This document shows positions 3,001 through 59,758 of a DNA stretch of 64,000 bases, piece by piece. How positions within the stretch are numbered: the stretch's first letter is position 1; each line of letters begins with the position of its first letter. The stretch lies in the NCBI RefSeq assembly GCF_021917145.1, contig NC_061068.1:4076932-4140931 (forward strand), given 5' to 3'. A model generated the notes under the pieces. The model worked only from the letters and a program-made list of their open reading frames with translations. It was not told the DNA's origin and made no database searches. The DNA comes from Hypomesus transpacificus. Its lineage: Eukaryota > Chordata > Actinopteri > Osmeriformes > Osmeridae. Both the position numbers and the translations under genes were made by a program.

Positions 3001-6000
3001 CCGAGACCTGAGCCCAGCCCTAGCCCAGCCCCGATCCCAACCCTCACCCTGTTGCCATTAAGGCTGCCATTGGGGGATTAGGGCTAGGGCTAGGGTTAGG
3101 GTTGGAGTTCCAGACTTCCGGGACCCCTGCCGTTGGTCTAATCCTGTTACCAGGCCTCCCTTGAGCTCCGCCGCAGGCCGAGACCTGAGCCCAGCCCTAG
3201 CCCAGCCCCGATCCCAACCCTCACCCTGTTGCCATTAAGGCTGCCATTGGGGGATTAGGGCTAGGGCTAGGGTTAGGGTTGGAGTTCCAGACTTCCGGGA
3301 CCCCTGCCGTTGGTCTAATCCTGTTACCAGGCCTCCCTTGAGGTCCGCCGCAGGCCGAGACCTGAGCCCAGCCCTAGCCCAGCCCCGATCCCAACCCTCG
3401 CCCTGTTGCCATTAAGGCTGCCATTGGGGGATTAGGGCTAGGGTTAGGGTTGGAGTTCCAGACTTCCGGGACCCCTACCGTTGGTCTGATCCTGTTACCA
3501 GGCCTCCCCTGAGCTCCGCCGCAGGCCGAGACCTGAGCCCAGCCCTAGCCCAGCCCCGATCCCAACCCTCACCCTGTTGCCATTAAGGCTGCCATTGGGG
3601 GATTAGGGCTAGGGTTAGGGTTGGAGTTCCAGACTTCCGGGACCCCTGCCGTTGGTCTGATCCTGTTACCAGGCCTCCCTTGAGCTCCGCCGCAGGCCGA
3701 GACCTGAGCCCAGCCCTAGCCCAGCCCCGATCCCAACCCTCACCCTGTTGCCATTAAGGCTGCCATTGGGGGATTAGGGCTAGGGCTAGGGTTAGGGTTG
3801 GAGTTCCAGACTTCCGGGACCCCTGCCGTTGGTCTAATCCTGTTACCAGGCCTCCCTTGAGGTCCGCCGCAGGCCGAGACCTGAGCCCAGCCCTAGCCCA
3901 GCCCCGATCCCAACCCTCGCCCTGTTGCCATTAAGGCTGCCATTGGGGGATTAGGGCTAGGGTTAGGGTTGGAGTTCAAGACTTCCGGGACCCCTACCGT
4001 TGGTCTGATCCTGTTACCAGGCCTCCCCTGAGCTCCGCCGCAGGCCGAGACCTGAGCCCAGCCCTAGCCCAGCCCCGATCCCAACCCTCGCCCTGTTGCC
4101 ATTAAGGCTGCCATTGGGGGATTAGGGCTAGGGCTAGGGTTAGGGTTGGAGTTCCAGACTTCCGGGACCCCTGCCGTTGGTCTAATCCTGTTACCAGGCC
4201 TCCCTTGAGCTCCGCTGCAGGCCGAGACCTGAGCCCAGCCCTAGCCCAGCCCCGATCCCAACCCTCACCCTGTTGCCATTAAGGCTGCCATTGGGGGATT
4301 AGGGCTAGGGCTAGGGTTAGGGTTGGAGTTCCAGACTTCCGGGACCCCTGCCGTTGGTCTAATCCTGTTACCAGGCCTCCCTTGAGCTCCGCCGCAGGCC
4401 GAGACCTGAGCCCAGCCCTAGCCCAGCCCCGATCCCAACCCTCACCCTGTTGCCATTAAGGCTGCCATTGGGGGATTAGGGCTAGGGCTAGGGTTAGGGT
4501 TGGAGTTCCAGACTTCCGGGACCCCTACCGTTGGTCTGATCCTGTTACCAGGCCGAGACCTGAGCCCAGCCCTAGTCCAGCCCCGATCCCAACCCTCGCC
4601 CTGTTGCCATTAAGGCTGCCATTGGGGGATTAGGGCTAGGGTTAGGGTTGGAGTTCCAGACTTCCGGGACCCCTACCGTTGGTCTGATCCTGTTACCAGG
4701 CCTCCCCTGAGCTCCGCCGCAGGCCGAGACCTGAGCCCAGCCCTAGCCCAGCCCCGATCCCAACCCTCGCCCTGTTGCCATTAAGGCTGCCATTGGGGGA
4801 TTAGGGCTAGGGCTAGGGTTAGGGTTGGAGTTCCAGACTTCCGGGACCCCTGCCGTTGGTCTAATCCTGTTACCAGGCCTCCCTTGAGGTCCGCCGCAGG
4901 CCGAGACCTGAGCCCAGCCCTAGCCCAGCCCCGATCCCAACCCTCGCCCTGTTGCCATTAAGGCTGCCATTGGGGGATTAGGGCTAGGGTTAGGGTTGGA
5001 GTTCCAGACTTCCGGGACCCCTGCCGTTGGTCTGATCCTGTTACCAGGCCTCCCTTGAGCTCCGCCGCAGGCCGAGACCTGAGCCCAGCCCTAGCCCAGC
5101 CCCGATCCCAACCCTCGCCCTGTTGCCATGAAGGCTGCCATTGGGGGATTAGGGCTAGGGTTAGGGTTGGAGTTCCAGACTTCCGGGACCCCTACCGTTG
5201 GTCTGATCCTGTTACCAGGCCTCCCCTGACCTCCGCCGCAGGCCGAGACCTAAGCCCAGCCCTAGCCCACCCCCAGCCCAGCCCCGATCCCAACCCTAGC
5301 CCTGTTGCCATTAAAGCTGCCATTGGGGGATTAGGGCTAGGGTTAGGGTTGGAGTTCCAGACTTCCGGGACCCCTACCGTTGGTCTGATCCTGTTACCAG
5401 GCCTCCCCTGAGCTCCGCCGCAGGCCGAGACCTGAGCCCAGCCCTAGCCCAGCCCCGATCCCAACCCTCACCCTGTTGCCATTAAGGCTGCCATTGGGGG
5501 ATTAGGGCTAGGGCTAGGGTTAGGGTTGGAGTTCCAGACTTCCGGGACCCCTGCCGTTGGTCTGATCCTGTTACCAGGCCTCCCTTGAGCTCCGCCGCAG
5601 GCCGAGACCTGAGCCCAGCCCTAGCCCAGCCCCGATCCCAACCCTCGCCCTGTTGCCATTAAGGCTGCCATTGGGGGATTAGGGCTAGGGCTAGGGTTAG
5701 GGTTGGAGTTCCAGACTTCCGGGACCCCTGCCGTTGGTCTGATCCTGTTACCAGGCCTCCCCTGAGCTCCGCCGCAGGCCGAGACCTGAGCCCAGCCCTA
5801 GCCCAGCCCCGATCCCAACCCTCGCCCTGTTGCCATTAAGGCTGCCATTGGGGGATTAGGGCTAGGCTAGGGTTAGGGTTGGAGTTCCAGACTTCCGGGA
5901 CCCCTACCGTTGGTCTGATCCTGTTACCAGGCCTCCCCTGAGCTCCGCCGCAGGCCGAGACCTGAGCCCAGCCCTAGCCCAGCCCCGATCCCAACCCTCA

Positions 6001-15140: not shown

Positions 15141-20887
<5,747 letters not shown>

Positions 20888-23800
20888 CCGCAGGCCTGGC
20901 GAATCAGGAGTCAGACAGGGGTCAGGTGGGTGTCGGTTGGGAGGAAGAAAGTAAGTAAGTAAGTAAGAAATACTTTATTTATATAGCACATTTCATACAA
21001 GAAGTGCGGCTCAAGGTGCTTTACATGACATCAACAAAAACAATAATACAAGTGATAAAAGTAACAGATCTAAAACATAACAAACCAGACTAGAACTGCA
21101 CTTGCAGCACAGAAGATACGGAAACGTTTCGAGTAGGCCTATTCAGACCCACTGCAATATCGTGTCATTGATACTCAAAGCAATCGCTTAATTTGATTCC
21201 CGAGTTCAGGTACAGTCTCCCTGCCCCTCATCCTTCCTGTCTCTACCAGTCACTAGCTCTCAGCCAGTCCTTGCTGGAGAAGCCCTGGATCGCTTCCAGC
21301 TTCAGTTGGGGCCGTTGAGAATGCAAATACCCAGAGACGAAACACCTTGAAACAGTCAACACACAGGCAGCCGACGGAGGATTCAAGGTCAGACAATCTG
21401 TTGATTCAATCTGCTCTGAATCAATAAAGATCTGCAGTGAAAGCAGCATGCGGGGATCCGTTCTACTGGCCGGCTCCACTAGCCTATCAACACATGAGTA
21501 GAGCTAGCTGTTATGTACACACAGACTCATAATCCCAAACCTTTCTTTTGTCAACTACAGCAGGGTGACTCACTGTGAGGATGCCTATTTTAGGCTAGGT
21601 GGAACACACACACACGCACGCACATTGATCTGGTTCCGTTGTGAATGGCGGCTCTTTTCCAAACCATGTGTTTAAGCAGCTGTTCCCCCTGTCCCTGAGA
21701 ACAGATCTCTGACACACACACACACACACATACAGGGAGTGTTTGGGGAAGACAATGCGTGAGAGAGGTGTGTGTGTCAGACTGGGCTGACTGTGACTAA
21801 AGAAGACAGGGGGAAGGAACAAGGAACAGCTGAGAAAAGAATGAGGAGGTGGGCGGTGTATTTAGCATCTGGGTCAGGGAGGCTGCTGTGTGTGTGCTTG
21901 TGTATGTGTGCTCGGCGTATGTGTGTGTGTGTGCGGATGGGAGTTTATGGAACTGTTTACAATGTGCAGGTTTGACAAATCCATTGTGTGTGTGTCTGGT
22001 CTGGTGTGTGATTCCTCTGGACAGGGAGACACTCCTGCTGTGACTACAGAAGGTGTGTGTGTTTGTTTCTGCGCGTGAGGAACAGGAAGGCTCCTAAATT
22101 AGTTCAACTCAGTGTTCAGTAGACATACCACCCACCCCTTGTCATAGACATGCTTGCTTTGCAGTGGTGTATGTGGATCATTTGTTGTTATAGCAGTGGT
22201 GACGTGTGTGTGGGTGTGATAGGAGTTGCAGCCTGGCGAGATGTCGTAAGCTGTGTTAAGGTTCTCCTGTTGAGATTAGGACACAGACAGGCGTTTGACA
22301 TGCCAGCTTGTTTAAGCATGCCAGCTCTGATTCACGCTGCGCCAGTTCAACAGTCTCTTAGCAGGGGGTGAAGGCATACCAAGGTGCACTGCAGCTTGGC
22401 ATAATCACAGGGGAGGAGGACCTGAGGAATGATGACTGGTCAATGTTGGGGTCTCAGAGCAGGGCGGGGCTAGGGAGGGGGGGGGGGGTTGATCGGGCTG
22501 GCTACGTCCACCAAGACAGCGTGTCCTGCACTAACCTGGCCTGGATCAGACATAGGTCAATTATAACAGGAGGAACGGCCTAATGCAATGAAACCACTGG
22601 CTCATCGACAGAATCAATGGCATTGACCGAGCGCTCTGGATGGCACCTCCCTTCCTTCAGAGGCAGAACAAGCTGCCCTGCCCTCAGGGAACACACAGCA
22701 CGCTGGACCAACTCTGGAGATAGATGTCATAGTGATACACTTATAATACGATAATGATGCTCATGACAATAATAATAATGATGAGGCTGTTGATTTGTCG
22801 TTTCTCTGTGAAATTCAGACACACTCTGTAGCAGGCTAATCCCTACAATCAGGCCACTACTGAAATGACTGTTTGATTCTATCGTCCTATTGTATTGGAA
22901 ATACACACCACGGGGAGTAGAACTGCTTTTGCAGGAACTACTAAAGTACAGATAGTATTGCAAAATACAAAAGAACCCAAAGCTATATGGTATTGTAGTG
23001 ATACTGTCAGAGGCTATAATGTGCAGTCTGCCAGAGAGAGGAACTACAGTCATGTTTCCCAAGCCCTGAGGACGGAAGAGGACTGGGACATGAGCACAAC
23101 ACCATACACAAATGAGTCACCCTGCACAAGTCAGAGAGAGTCATTCACGGTTCCACCCAGCATTCTACAGAACTGACAAGGATTCTCTCTGGAACCCATA
23201 TAGTTCCTTATGGACGCCTTTGATCAGCGGGTTCTTCTGCTGAGGGAGCTAAGAGCTCTGTCTTTCACACCCTTCATGTGCTATGGGTGGGTGATGAAGA
23301 GTCGGATGGTAGCTCAACAGCCAATGTAACTAACTCACCTGCCACAGCCCTTCCCCTCTGACTCCCTCCCGCCTGACCACTTCTGTCAATGACAACTCGA
23401 TGAACTCCTGTTGACCTTGCTTGACAAACAAATGGCTAGGGGGTTTCCATGGTGACCGGGGGGGGGGGGGGGGGGGATACGTTTACATGCGTCCTTCCCT
23501 CCTTTCTCACTGACTTGAGTCAAAATAACAGGTGGCAGCGTGTCATGTTCTACCCTGGTGTTCCAACCCAGCTCACAGTGCATCCAGGTTGCTCAAAGGA
23601 AGTGGGAAGGAAGGATTCACTTGACCAACACTGAGACTCAACCTTTAGGCTACTCTTCAGTCTCTTCCCTGAAGGCCTCTGAAAGCCATGACCCCTACCC
23701 TCGGGCTCTCTAGGCATGGCTATGACCTCATGTTCTTCTTAGATCCATAACAAAAAAGACAAGGTCTCTTCCACAACTAAAAGAATGAAGCAAGTTGAAG

Positions 23801-38714: not shown

Positions 38715-41700
38715 TTATCGCTTGTTGAATGCCACTGGGAGTTCCCGGTTTGGAACCAGGGTTCCAGAATGGATTGCTTCCACTGGCTCATTATCTGTGG
38801 CCACAATGTCATAATCCCTGACCAGCTGATGGAGAGGGAGAGGGAGAGGGAGAGGGAGAGGGAGAGGGAGAGGGAGAGGGAGAGGGAGAGGGAGAGGGAG
38901 AGGGAGAGGGAGAGGGAGAGCGAGAGCGAGAGGGAGAGGGAGAGGGAGAGGGGGAGAGGGGGAGAGGGGGAGAGGGAGGGACGACCATTAGATCATAAAC
39001 AACTTGCAAACGTTTTGTTTTCGCCGTATGGACTGAACTGAAACAAATCTAAGGTGACCTGACCCCCAAACTGAACCACACTGACCTCACCCGAATCACA
39101 TGGAGTTGAATACAAATCCAAACATAATGCTAAGAAAATACACCAAGGTACGCTGCATGTGGTGCTAGTGTTTCGGGCAGCCCGAGGACAGTCCTTACCC
39201 AGCACAGTGCCAGCTGCAGCTGGAGCTCTGCCAGCCTGCGCCCGATACACATCCTCTTCCCAATGCCAAAGGGAACGTGGGCGAAGGGATTTATGGTACT
39301 GGTCTCCCTCAGCCAGCGCTCAGGCTTGAACCGAGTCCCCTCGCTGAAGTAGTCCTCGTTAGAACCCAGCGCGTGACTGTTGATCATCAGGACGGTCTGA
39401 GGAGCAACATTCAATCAGTCATTCAGTTTTCCAATGAATCAACAATTCAATCAATCAATAGATACAATCAACATTGTCTGTAAGTGAGTCAATCCCACGG
39501 CTGTTGGTGTGGCTCAATATCCCACGGTGCTCCTTCGAATCAGACACTGATCATGGGTGATGTATCCAGACTTTCAGAGTGCCTTACAAGCTGGGCCCTC
39601 CTGAATCATACCCCTTTTTCCTTTTCAAGTCTTTCCCATTCTGAGCCCTGGGAACAATTTTGTGTACAAATGCGCCCCCTGCTGGAGAGACTAATGTACG
39701 GCAGTCCACTTTGTGGCCATAAGTATGTGAGTCGGTTACAGTGGATCAGTGATACTTTAAACAGCTTCAGTCGAACATCAATCAAACCTAAATTAACGTA
39801 CCAGTAAGCTGCAAGCATGGACCAGGGGGGTGAGGAGAGCTAAGCCACTTACCCCCTTGGGAATGGAGTAATCCCCCAACACAGTGTCTTTGTCCAGGGT
39901 CCGACTCGTGAATGGGACCGACGGCGATAACCTGCAAGAATTTCAAAAACAGCGCTTGGGAATGATGCCTTATCTGGTGTGGTCGGGGTCTGCATGGCCC
40001 TAAAGCTCTTTAGCATTAGTTAAACATACTTCAACTTCTCTCAAAAGGCAAATTGAAAGGGACTGTAATCCCTGTCAAAGGCTGAGGACATTCTCTGCCT
40101 GGGTTGTAGTATTAGGTAACATGTAAAAACACTTGTGACTGCATGGGATACAGTGTTGTGGTGTACAGGGGGTCAGTGGGGAGGTGTTTGAACGTGAGAC
40201 ACCATACTGTTTCTGTGAACCCACATACCTATCCCATGAAGCTTGTTTTTGAGCTAGCTATTCATGCATGCACTTGCTTCTTAATCACTGGCCTACTTAG
40301 GTGTATTTCTACATGGTGCAACCATATTTGGTTTCAATCCCTATCCGTGTGTAGGATATGGTTTACCAAACTCTCATATTATGTTACACCTATTCTAGAA
40401 ACACTATGTGCATGAGAATATGGTTAACATAAATTCTACTACATAAATGTATGCAAATATTGTTGTTGTGCTGCAATTTTCCTGACTAGGTTAGGACAAA
40501 CATTTACTTATTTGAATTAGTTTGGCACTCATGGTGTTATTGTCAAACCAAACATTCAAGTTTTGTCCAAAGGGAGCCAATGGACAGGCCTCATATATTA
40601 TATAAATGAAACAGTCATATATCAACACATGGAGATGTGTACCTCATGGACTCCTTGAGGCAGGCCTTGAGGTAGGGCATGCTCTTGATGTGCTCGGCAC
40701 ACGGATTCTCATTGGCAGGAATCACCTGTTGGATCTCCTGCAGGAGCCTCTCCTGGGCGCCATGGTTACGGGACAGGTTGAAAATAGCCCACAGCAGGCT
40801 GTTGGCAGTCTATAGAACACAAATATTAACATTTTTGTCATTTAGCAGACGCTATTATCCAGAGCGACTTACAGTAAGTACAGGGACATTCCCCTGAGGC
40901 AAGTAGGGTGAAGTGCCTTGCCCGAGGAACAACATCATTTGGCATGACCGGGAATCAAACCGGCAACCTTCTGACCCCCCCAAACATTGCGGTGGGGAGG
41001 CATGGGAAGAAGCAGAAGAGAGGGGGAATGTAAGAGAGAGTGAGGGAGAGGGGGAGCAAGAGGGAAGGGGGGGTGAGGAGGGGAGGGGAGGGGAGGGAGG
41101 TCGTCATTTAGGGAGCTACTATAACAGCATTCCAAAGAGGGGTCCTAAAAGGAGCTCTGGAATGTGTTGGTGTTCCTCAAGAGAGGCCACAGCTCCATCC
41201 AAACAGGCACGTACTCCCACATCCTGCCTTATTTCAGTCCTGCTCTTTTCACACCTGTCTGTTTATTTCCTTGAGGGTTTGAAACTTAAAAGGCAGCTAC
41301 TGGGGGAGAGGTGAAAAACCGCTGAAGATGTTTATGACGGGCTTCTCTCACATCTTTCAAAAGGGTTAGGTTGAGTGTGCTTGTACATGTGCGTGTGTGT
41401 GTGTGTGTGTGAGAGAGACTCACCGTCTCCACCCCTCCGATCTGCAGCTCAGTGATGGCAGCATACAGTTCCTTCTTGGACAAACGGCTGTTGCGGTAGA
41501 TGTCAGACAGGAAGGTGTCATCACCTGTACCAGCCGAGTGTTGGTTTAGCTTCCTGTCGATGTAGACTTTTGCTGAGAATGAAAAAAGATTTTTCAAGGA
41601 TGCTGCCGTCAAAAAAGGATTACAGGATGTGAATCCTTCATTTCAGATCTCATCACATTGGTTTGTTTCTTAAATGTTTGTCTCACTTGACTCTTTATTT

Positions 41701-42021: not shown

Positions 42022-44463
42022 ACAGGTGCTTGCATGACAACAACAATGAAGAATGCAGCACAACAAACTGTCAGTAGCAAGGCTTAGGCAAACAGTTCAC
42101 TCCCCCCTCGTACTCTTACTTTCTCCATCCCTCTATCCCTCTATCCCTCCTTCCCTCCTTCCCTCCTTCCTTCCTTCCCTCTGTCCCTCCTCCATCAACT
42201 ATAAATATTTGCCAATGTTTTCCCCCTTAGGTCACCCAGTTTACTACTAGCGGCTTTCAATTACAGAACCCCTAGTCCACACCCTCCTCCTCCTCCTCTT
42301 CTCTCTGTACTCTCTACCCTGTCTCCAATGCCCCACCCACCCTACTCCTCTCTCTCCGCCTCCATGCCTCCTTCTGTACAATCACCTGACTGGAAAACAC
42401 GCAAATCGGTTTGTGGGTCACACGTCATATGTTGGAAGACCGGAGCACATGTGAGGTGGGGATGGGGGGGCTGGAGTTCAGTGGTTTAATTGGAGGGAAA
42501 GTGTAAGAAAAGGGGAGGGTTACTTTTAAGGGGGTGGGATTCAAGGGAAAAACAATACAAGGCAGAGAAAGCTCATTGGACACATGGTTGTGGGGCTGGG
42601 GGCTGGGGGGGTCACACCACTGTCGGGGTGGACTGAGGACGTGCACGAGGGTTTCAGGAGGGAGGGGCTGCTGTGGGAGTACCTGTGCTGAAGATGCGAT
42701 CCCAGGCGGCTGTGTGGTCTTGCCAGGTCTTGGTGTTCAGCTTCCTGTGCAGCTCCACTGGTGTGACCATCATCATGCCAAATGAATTCATCATCTACGG
42801 AGAAAAAAAAGAAAAAAAGAGAAAGATACATGATCAGTGTCATAAAAACACAACAACATCAATCAATCATGCAATCCCAAAAATTCTCCAACATCTCCCG
42901 GCATTTTCATGGGAGATTGTAACTATACAATGTAAATAACGCATAGAGGTTATTCTGTAAGACCTTTGTAAAGGTCCTGTTGGTTCGTCTGTTTTTCACT
43001 CACATGTCCGATAGCGCAGGCCCTACCGCTGTGTCAGTACGTGTAGTGATTATAGCCTGTTCTAGTGAACTCAGTGAACCACTGTAGTACAGGCTTGGAG
43101 AAACTCGTGCAATGTGCTTCCCGTTGACGAGATAATCAGTTTATCAAGTGATATGAAGGGTCCACCAGTACCGACAGTGAATACAGTATGCTAAATAGGT
43201 CGTCGTAAAGTGATAGTTTAGATTGCTTGCAGCAATTAATTATATAGCTTTGTCTACTTACTGTTTTTACGGAAGTGATGAAGTTTATTGCCTCTTCATC
43301 GATTTTCTCATTCAGAAGTCCAAATCGTTTGTCGTAGAGAACAAAGCAAATTGCTGTAACGATAAAGCAGGACGTCTTAGAAAAGTTCATTCAGTTCAGT
43401 TAAATCTATTGAACTGCGTATTTCCTGCGTTTTTCATTACAAGCATTTTTGGGAAAATGTTAAACTGGTCATTTAACTTACTTTCAAATGACCATTTATT
43501 CAGTTCGAAATACAAATCGTAAATTTTTCCACCGACGTTCTCCTTCCCAATTCTTTTAACGAAATCTACCATGACCTGTAAATAAAAATAATATATATTT
43601 TTAAAGCAATTTCACACGTTTTTGATTAAGGCTCATCAAGGATCAAATGTATTTTTGACAAACGATAAACTAACGAACTAACCTCGTTTATCTTCCCATC
43701 AAGTTTCATGATCTCAGTGGGTTTCATCAGTTTCTGTTGAAAGACGCTCCTCACCCTCTGCCAATCTTCGCCCTCCCTGAAAACAGCCCAAGCATTAGGC
43801 TACATAGAAATAATCAAAACACAAAATGCTTCCTTATCTTGTAAGTATCAAATGTAAAAGAAAGATCGTTAGGAAAGAATGTGAGTCTTACAGAATGAGG
43901 AGTCCATACGCCTCGTCTCTCATGTCTCTGTAAGCCTTCCACGGCTTGATCTCTAAGCGCTGTGGATAGTTGCTTTCCTTTCTGTAGAGCGCCTCTAGCA
44001 AGCAAGGAGCGCCTATGTGGACAGACTCAAATGATCCCAGTTTCATCCGGAATATTTTTCCGAATTTCTTGTGGTAATCAACCTGAAACAGTGAAAAGAC
44101 AACGTATTGAATCAAAAAGTTCCAGTAATGGTAGTAAATTGTGTGGAAAAAAATTGTTTCGATGTATTTATTATAAAATTACAAAACGTTCTCATCAGTG
44201 TTTACCAGCGCGTTGTGTTGTCGTGTCAAGCCTCCTCTGAAGAGAAGTTCAATCAGGCTGCCAACCAGAGGCCATCTGGTTGGTCCGGGAAGCGCATCAA
44301 TGCTGGGCGCCGCGGCACGGATGTGTCCACAAGGCGCAACCTCCGCAGCATCCTTCGAGTCCAGGACGCACACTGAAGATGTAGGCTTGAAGTGCTGCAA
44401 GCCCACTGATTTCTTTTTCAGTAACTCGACAATCTGCGGGACTTTTTGAATTTGTGCCCTCAT
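38715..44463 (-). CDS. cyp24a1: CYP24A1, mitochondrial vitamin D hydroxylase (11 coding exons)
   Basis: Mitochondrial inner-membrane P450 that inactivates 1,25-dihydroxyvitamin D and 25-hydroxyvitamin D, receiving electrons from adrenodoxin. Coding exons: 44206-44463, 43892-44082, 43683-43776, 43482-43575, 43262-43353, 42683-42794, 41424-41572, 40643-40809, 39853-39931, 39199-39396, 38715-38825; 514 aa, exactly the human length, so human numbering applies directly. Visible: basic N-terminal targeting region; [13 protein letters not shown]; substrate-access KPWKAYRD; I-helix [14 protein letters not shown]-helix KESMR; PERW; heme loop [11 protein letters not shown] with Cys462; C-terminus [14 protein letters not shown]. 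Position 326 is Gly where human has Ala. The last exon's acceptor abuts a GGGAGA microsatellite. Regulation by the vitamin D receptor is suggested by a DR3 element upstream. Confidence 0.97.
38831..38980 (+). repeat. (GGGAGA)n microsatellite, about 150 bp
   Basis: Nearly perfect GGGAGA hexamers with a few GCGAGA and GGGGAGA variants. On the cyp24a1 sense (minus) strand this is an uninterrupted pyrimidine tract ending at the CATCAG acceptor of the final coding exon. Confidence 0.95.
40831..40985 (-). mobile_element. tRNA-derived SINE copy, 5'-truncated
   Basis: On the plus strand it begins 'catttagcagacgctattat' (reverse of the SINE tail) and runs to 'gggaatcaaaccggcaacc' (reverse of the B-box region). 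It sits directly upstream of a cyp24a1 exon (40643-40809), in the sense orientation of that gene. Confidence 0.8.
41938..42017 (+). repeat. (GT)40 microsatellite in cyp24a1 intron
   Basis: Forty perfect GT dinucleotides (CA on the gene's sense strand) between coding exons 6 and 7 of cyp24a1. The perfect length makes it a likely polymorphic marker. Confidence 0.97.
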
Positions 44464-44795: not shown

Positions 44796-44810
44796 AGGTG
44801 ACGCGGTTCA
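44796..44810 (+). promoter_or_regulatory. cyp24a1: DR3 vitamin D response element upstream of cyp24a1
   Basis: AGGTGA-CGC-GGTTCA is a direct repeat of two nuclear-receptor half-sites with a 3-bp spacer, the classical VDR/RXR site. It lies about 190 bp upstream of the TATA box. A third half-site, TGAACC (44813-44818), forms an inverted pair with GGTTCA. Mammalian CYP24A1 promoters carry DR3 VDREs within about 300 bp of the start. Confidence 0.75.
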
Positions 44811-58992: not shown

Positions 58993-59688
58993 TTATTCCT
59001 GTATCTGTTTCTCCATTTTGAGAATATGAACTCCTGATAGCTTAGTTATCCAATCAGGAGCATGCGTCTCTCTGTGTGTGTGGACACACGTGAATCCCAT
59101 CTTCTTATAAAGGGCCACAGCAGCCGTCTGGGTGGAGCTGGTCTCCAGGACAACCTTGGAGAAGCCATGCTCCTTGCAGAAGTCGATGACCGTCTGAGCC
59201 AATCTGGAACCCAGGCCCATCCGTCGGCACGATGATGAGATGATCATCCTAAACAGCTCCCCATACCGCTCCCCTGTTCCCTCGGCTGCGCTCTGTTTGG
59301 CCACTACGGCCACCATACCCATGACCTCCGACCTTCCATCCACCTCAGCCTCCGCCACCCAGAAGCAGTTGTCTGGCTGACTCAGGTAGCAGCCAGGTAT
59401 ATCCAGCATGTCTGTACGCAGCCTCTCTCTGACAAAGCTGTCGTATAGCTCATAACAGCAGTAGTAGACCAGCGCCACCCATGCCCCCGCCAGCAGCAGG
59501 GCACAGAGCGGGGCCCCCCCTCCCAGGTGGTGGCCAACAGCAGACAGACCCAGGGTGATAACCAGGTACAGCGGCCGGGTCATAGCATTGCGGAACGATG
59601 GTCCGATATGCTCCAGGATGCCGTCGCTGAAAAGGACCAAGACAGCGTCCTTGTCCAATGGACGGTAACGTCTAATCACCAGCTGCAT
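58993..59688 (-). CDS. NAT8-like (camello family) N-acetyltransferase
   Basis: A 231-aa protein encoded in a single exon, as in the NAT8/camello family of ER/Golgi membrane acetyltransferases. Mammalian NAT8 acetylates cysteine S-conjugates, and other members acetylate protein lysines. N-terminal part IRRYRPLDKDAV, then a hydrophobic hairpin (about residues 38-80, LYLVITLGLSAV and LCALLLAGAWVALVYYC). The luminal/cytosolic GNAT domain follows, with FWVAEAEVDG, the acetyl-CoA loop R-x-x-G-x-G (Arg155 to Gly160, RRMGLG), LETSSTQTAAVALY and KKMGF. A TTTTTAG acceptor lies 2 nt upstream of the ATG, so a 5' noncoding exon is expected (candidate donor at 59964). Which NAT8 paralogue it is cannot be told, so no symbol is given. 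Confidence 0.92.
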   Translation of the reverse strand: MQLVIRRYRPLDKDAVLVLFSDGILEHIGPSFRNAMTRPLYLVITLGLSAVGHHLGGGAPLCALLLAGAWVALVYYCCYELYDSFVRERLRTDMLDIPGCYLSQPDNCFWVAEAEVDGRSEVMGMVAVVAKQSAAEGTGERYGELFRMIISSSCRRMGLGSRLAQTVIDFCKEHGFSKVVLETSSTQTAAVALYKKMGFTCVHTHRETHAPDWITKLSGVHILKMEKQIQE

Positions 59689-59758
59689 GACTAAAAAGAA
59701 TGACAGGCTAGATGTTAGACACCAACATCATCATCATCTCTAACATGACTACAAGATA

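Follow-up and report, generated by a model that had tools for sequence, protein, structure and literature searches.

The cyp24a1 locus described here encodes an enzyme with glycine at residue 326, which raises the question of whether this fish CYP24A1 would break down vitamin D mainly through hydroxylation at C23 rather than at C24. In mammalian enzymes residue 326 is described as setting this preference, Ala favouring C24 and Gly favouring C23, with the substrate side chain docking further into the pocket when Gly326 is present; the opossum and guinea pig enzymes are listed as preferring C23 (PMC7569877, available in part). A second review, also available in part, states that Gly326 is found in guinea pig and opossum, whose enzymes mainly follow the C23 pathway, that residue 326 of the human enzyme is Ala, and that replacement of Ala326 by Gly turns both the rat and the human enzyme into the guinea-pig type (PMC8584323). 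The likeness of the fish protein to the opossum and guinea-pig enzymes, Gly at 326, is taken from that literature statement. The account of residue 326 in mammals given in the original prediction agrees with both reviews, the second of which adds that the predominant pathway is perhaps of lesser importance for inactivation.

An intact cyp24a1 gene was found on the minus strand at positions 44463-38715 of the window, by which is meant the whole 64-kb stretch of DNA that was analysed. Exon borders were picked by eye, with the gt...ag rule guiding the choice, and the 11 exons (all on the minus strand) are exon 1 at 44463-44206 (258 nt, 86 codons), exon 2 at 44082-43892, exon 3 at 43776-43683, exon 4 at 43575-43482, exon 5 at 43353-43262, exon 6 at 42794-42683, exon 7 at 41572-41424, exon 8 at 40809-40643, exon 9 at 39931-39853, exon 10 at 39396-39199 and exon 11 at 38825-38715, stop included. 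When joined, these give a coding sequence of 1545 nt (514 codons and a stop) without internal stops, and all ten introns run from gt to ag. The Pfam p450 model (PF00067) matches residues 59-497 of the product (E=1.9e-103, 347 bits), and the heme-thiolate cysteine of P450 enzymes is present as Cys462 in GKRMCIG. The 86 residues of exon 1, the protein length of 514 and the position of the heme cysteine had all been predicted, and the joined coding sequence confirms them. In human CYP24A1, exon 1 likewise encodes 86 residues and the protein has 514, with Ala at residue 327.

Comparison with solved structures, which yielded 23 matched sequences that included neither CYP27A1 nor CYP27B1, placed rat CYP24A1 (3k9v_A) closest to the fish protein (E=9.9e-221, 737 bits), with 311 of 461 aligned residues identical (67%). 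The runner-up, an ancestral CYP11A1, was a much weaker match at 298 bits. The PDB entry 3k9v is identified as rat CYP24A1 in PMC12467546 (available in part). A scan against NCBIfam was uninformative, as all nine models fell far under their cut-offs, and a scan of IMG/VR for relatives of the fish protein returned two pattern-matching stretches, neither of which encoded a relative. The locus is an ordinary cyp24a1, and its product would act in mitochondria as the P450 responsible for inactivating 25-hydroxy- and 1,25-dihydroxyvitamin D3.

Exon 7 ends in the I-helix motif ELQIGGVET, followed by the splice donor gtgagt, and its 3' end reads GAG CTG CAG ATC GGA GGG GTG GAG ACG, corresponding to residues 322 (Glu) to 330 (Thr). 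From the joined coding sequence and the alignment with rat, codon 326 (GGA, Gly) lies at 41436..41438, codon 327 (GGG, Gly) at 41433..41435 and codon 329, the Glu of the I-helix Glu-Thr pair, at 41427..41429, all on the minus strand; codon 330 (ACG, Thr; 41426-41424, minus strand) is the last of the exon. The two glycines are therefore located where they had been predicted. The same alignment columns in rat hold Ala326-Ala327, while the remainder of the pattern ELQxxxVETT, with Glu329-Thr330, is found in both proteins. It had been argued that equal protein length secures the numbering; the numbering itself stands, but the argument does not, as the fish protein has one residue fewer than rat after 193 and one more at about 300. 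Rat 242 is consequently fish 241, and because the two one-residue indels cancel, the register is restored at 326 (rat 325-331 = fish 325-331). A misnumbering of residue 326 was rejected, as the two indels offset each other before that position.

The surroundings of residue 326 were compared with rat CYP24A1 at 25 positions, comprising 21 pocket or interacting residues named in PMC12467546 or PMC6171836 (each available in part), with 327, 331, 416 and 462 added. Ala326 is counted among the rat pocket residues in both papers. Identity was found at 17 of the 25 positions, including Glu329, Thr330, Thr331 and Cys462, and the remaining eight differ from rat to fish (rat numbers) as M148L, I242V, L325I, A326G, A327G, T395S, T416M and I500T, six of them falling among the 21 literature-named positions. 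Two of these changes, T416M and I500T, are reportedly (Hamamoto 2006) rat-to-human changes that introduce or raise C23 oxidation in rat CYP24A1, and human CYP24A1 has Met at 416 and Thr at 500. A literature search on CYP24A1 with T416M returned no match. If this reported effect of T416M and I500T is right, three of the eight rat-fish differences (326, 416 and 500) would point towards C23. With eight of 25 positions unlike rat, however, a single residue is not a safe basis for prediction, and Gly326 need not act in the fish enzyme as it does in the mammalian ones.

The pocket geometry and product ratio that we infer for the fish enzyme would arise as follows. Residue 326 is expected to line the pocket, within the I-helix and close to the heme; Gly at this position would let the substrate side chain go deeper, and a deeper side chain would bring C23, and not C24, to the heme oxygen. 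By analogy with the mammalian enzymes, the Gly326 fish CYP24A1 is probably a dual-pathway enzyme with a C23 share clearly above that of rat or human, and possibly a C23-dominant one. That it makes mainly 23-hydroxylated or lactone products, as originally predicted, is plausible, the reasoning being drawn from two mammals and from mutated forms of two mammalian enzymes. In the literature searched, no assay of the products of any fish CYP24A1 was recognised, as far as its text was available, which is not proof of absence. Zebrafish cyp24a1 is induced by 1,25(OH)2D3 via VDRa (PMC3446910), and in the part of that paper available no product profile was found and the term '23-hydroxy' did not occur.

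The strongest alternative is that Gly326 is compensated by Leu148, Val at rat 242, Ile325, Gly327 and Ser395, all of them unlike rat, so that the enzyme stays mainly a 24-hydroxylase. This we consider a possibility of real weight, though the lesser one, since rat and human CYP24A1 differ in their C24:C23 ratio (about 25:1 and about 4:1, respectively) despite having Ala326 in common, which implies that residues other than 326 matter; against it, both cited Gly326 mammals prefer C23, and a single change is said to convert the rat and human enzymes (PMC8584323, available in part). In rats, the estimated shares of lactone formation from the triol are 0.77 for CYP3A and 0.23 for CYP24A1 (PMC8134072, available in part), and lactone found in an animal is therefore not a pure readout of CYP24A1. 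Reports of 24,25-dihydroxyvitamin D3 in fish would count against an exclusively C23 enzyme. That a second cyp24a1 copy with Ala326, elsewhere in the genome, does the C24 work is very improbable. An assembly or sequencing error at codons 326/327 is scarcely credible, because each Gly codon would require its own base change to give Ala (two in all) and a G gained or lost in the GGGG run would break the frame, whereas exon 7 is in frame with an intact splice donor, and because Gly-Gly occupies the same columns in CYP11A1. Gly326 in fish CYP24A1, as read from the gene and its alignment, is a true natural variant.

The preferred reading, a dual-pathway enzyme with an enlarged C23 share, would have consequences for work on fish. 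If fish CYP24A1 favours C23, 24,25-dihydroxyvitamin D3 would be a misleading readout of vitamin D breakdown in these animals, and studies of fish cyp24a1 would need lactone measurements. Gly326 variants of CYP24A1 were known already, and one more species is added here; as a Gly326 enzyme from outside the mammals, it provides a straightforward means of asking when the preference for C24 arose.

The age of Gly326 was considered from five of the 23 matched sequences, namely rat CYP24A1 and four of CYP11A1. Gly-Gly was found at the columns of 326-327 in all four CYP11A1 alignments, which amount to about three independent cases, as 3na0 and 3n9y seem to be two constructs of the same protein. CYP11A1 carries out cholesterol side-chain cleavage and so acts on a substrate other than that of CYP24A1; its Gly-Gly indicates that Gly is tolerated at these positions among mitochondrial P450s. 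Gly at 326-327 may therefore be old and the Ala-Ala of rat derived, on the strength of these alignments. Against this stands the Ala-Gly of CYP27A1 and CYP27B1 at the same columns, which would make Gly327 old without deciding 326. It is rather unlikely that Gly326 was the ancestral state of vertebrate CYP24A1 and that C23 oxidation to the 26,23-lactone was the original route, in which case 24-oxidation would have taken over only in lineages that acquired Ala326, perhaps among the mammals.

Upstream of the gene, a pattern search found a DR3 site, AGGTGAcgcGGTTCA, at 44796..44810 on the plus strand, consisting of two half sites with a spacer of three and located 333-347 bases upstream of the cyp24a1 ATG. 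It lies approximately 190-205 bases upstream of the TATA-like TATATAAG, itself one of four TATA-like matches within the 600 bases before the ATG. In the mouse, the half-site consensus is (G/A)GGT(G/C)A and the vitamin D response elements of Cyp24a1 are located at -156/-171 and -267/-282 from the transcription start (PMC11487884, available in part), an upstream distance like that of AGGTGAcgcGGTTCA. The DR3 pattern has four matches on both strands of the window, AGGTGAcgcGGTTCA included, and two of the others lie in cyp24a1 introns: GGTTCActgAGTTCA at 43066-43080 (minus strand) in intron 5 and AGTTCAttcAGTTCA at 43384-43398 (plus strand) in intron 4. Because of this recurrence, AGGTGAcgcGGTTCA is suggestive only, as a candidate vitamin D response element of cyp24a1.

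Several other features were observed elsewhere in the window. Parts of a gene for a tyrosine kinase of the Src family lie at about 15144-20974 on the minus strand, with two kinase pieces and one SH2 piece above the Pfam cut-offs and an SH3 piece just under its cut-off; among solved structures, one of the kinase pieces matched Fyn and Src best. A GNAT acetyltransferase domain is contained in the open frame at 58996-59727 on the minus strand (Pfam E=3.5e-20). At the start of the window, a 563-base run (362-924) has an exact copy 861 bases downstream, with a similar open frame again near 4962-5408 on the plus strand, this part of the window being a repeat array.
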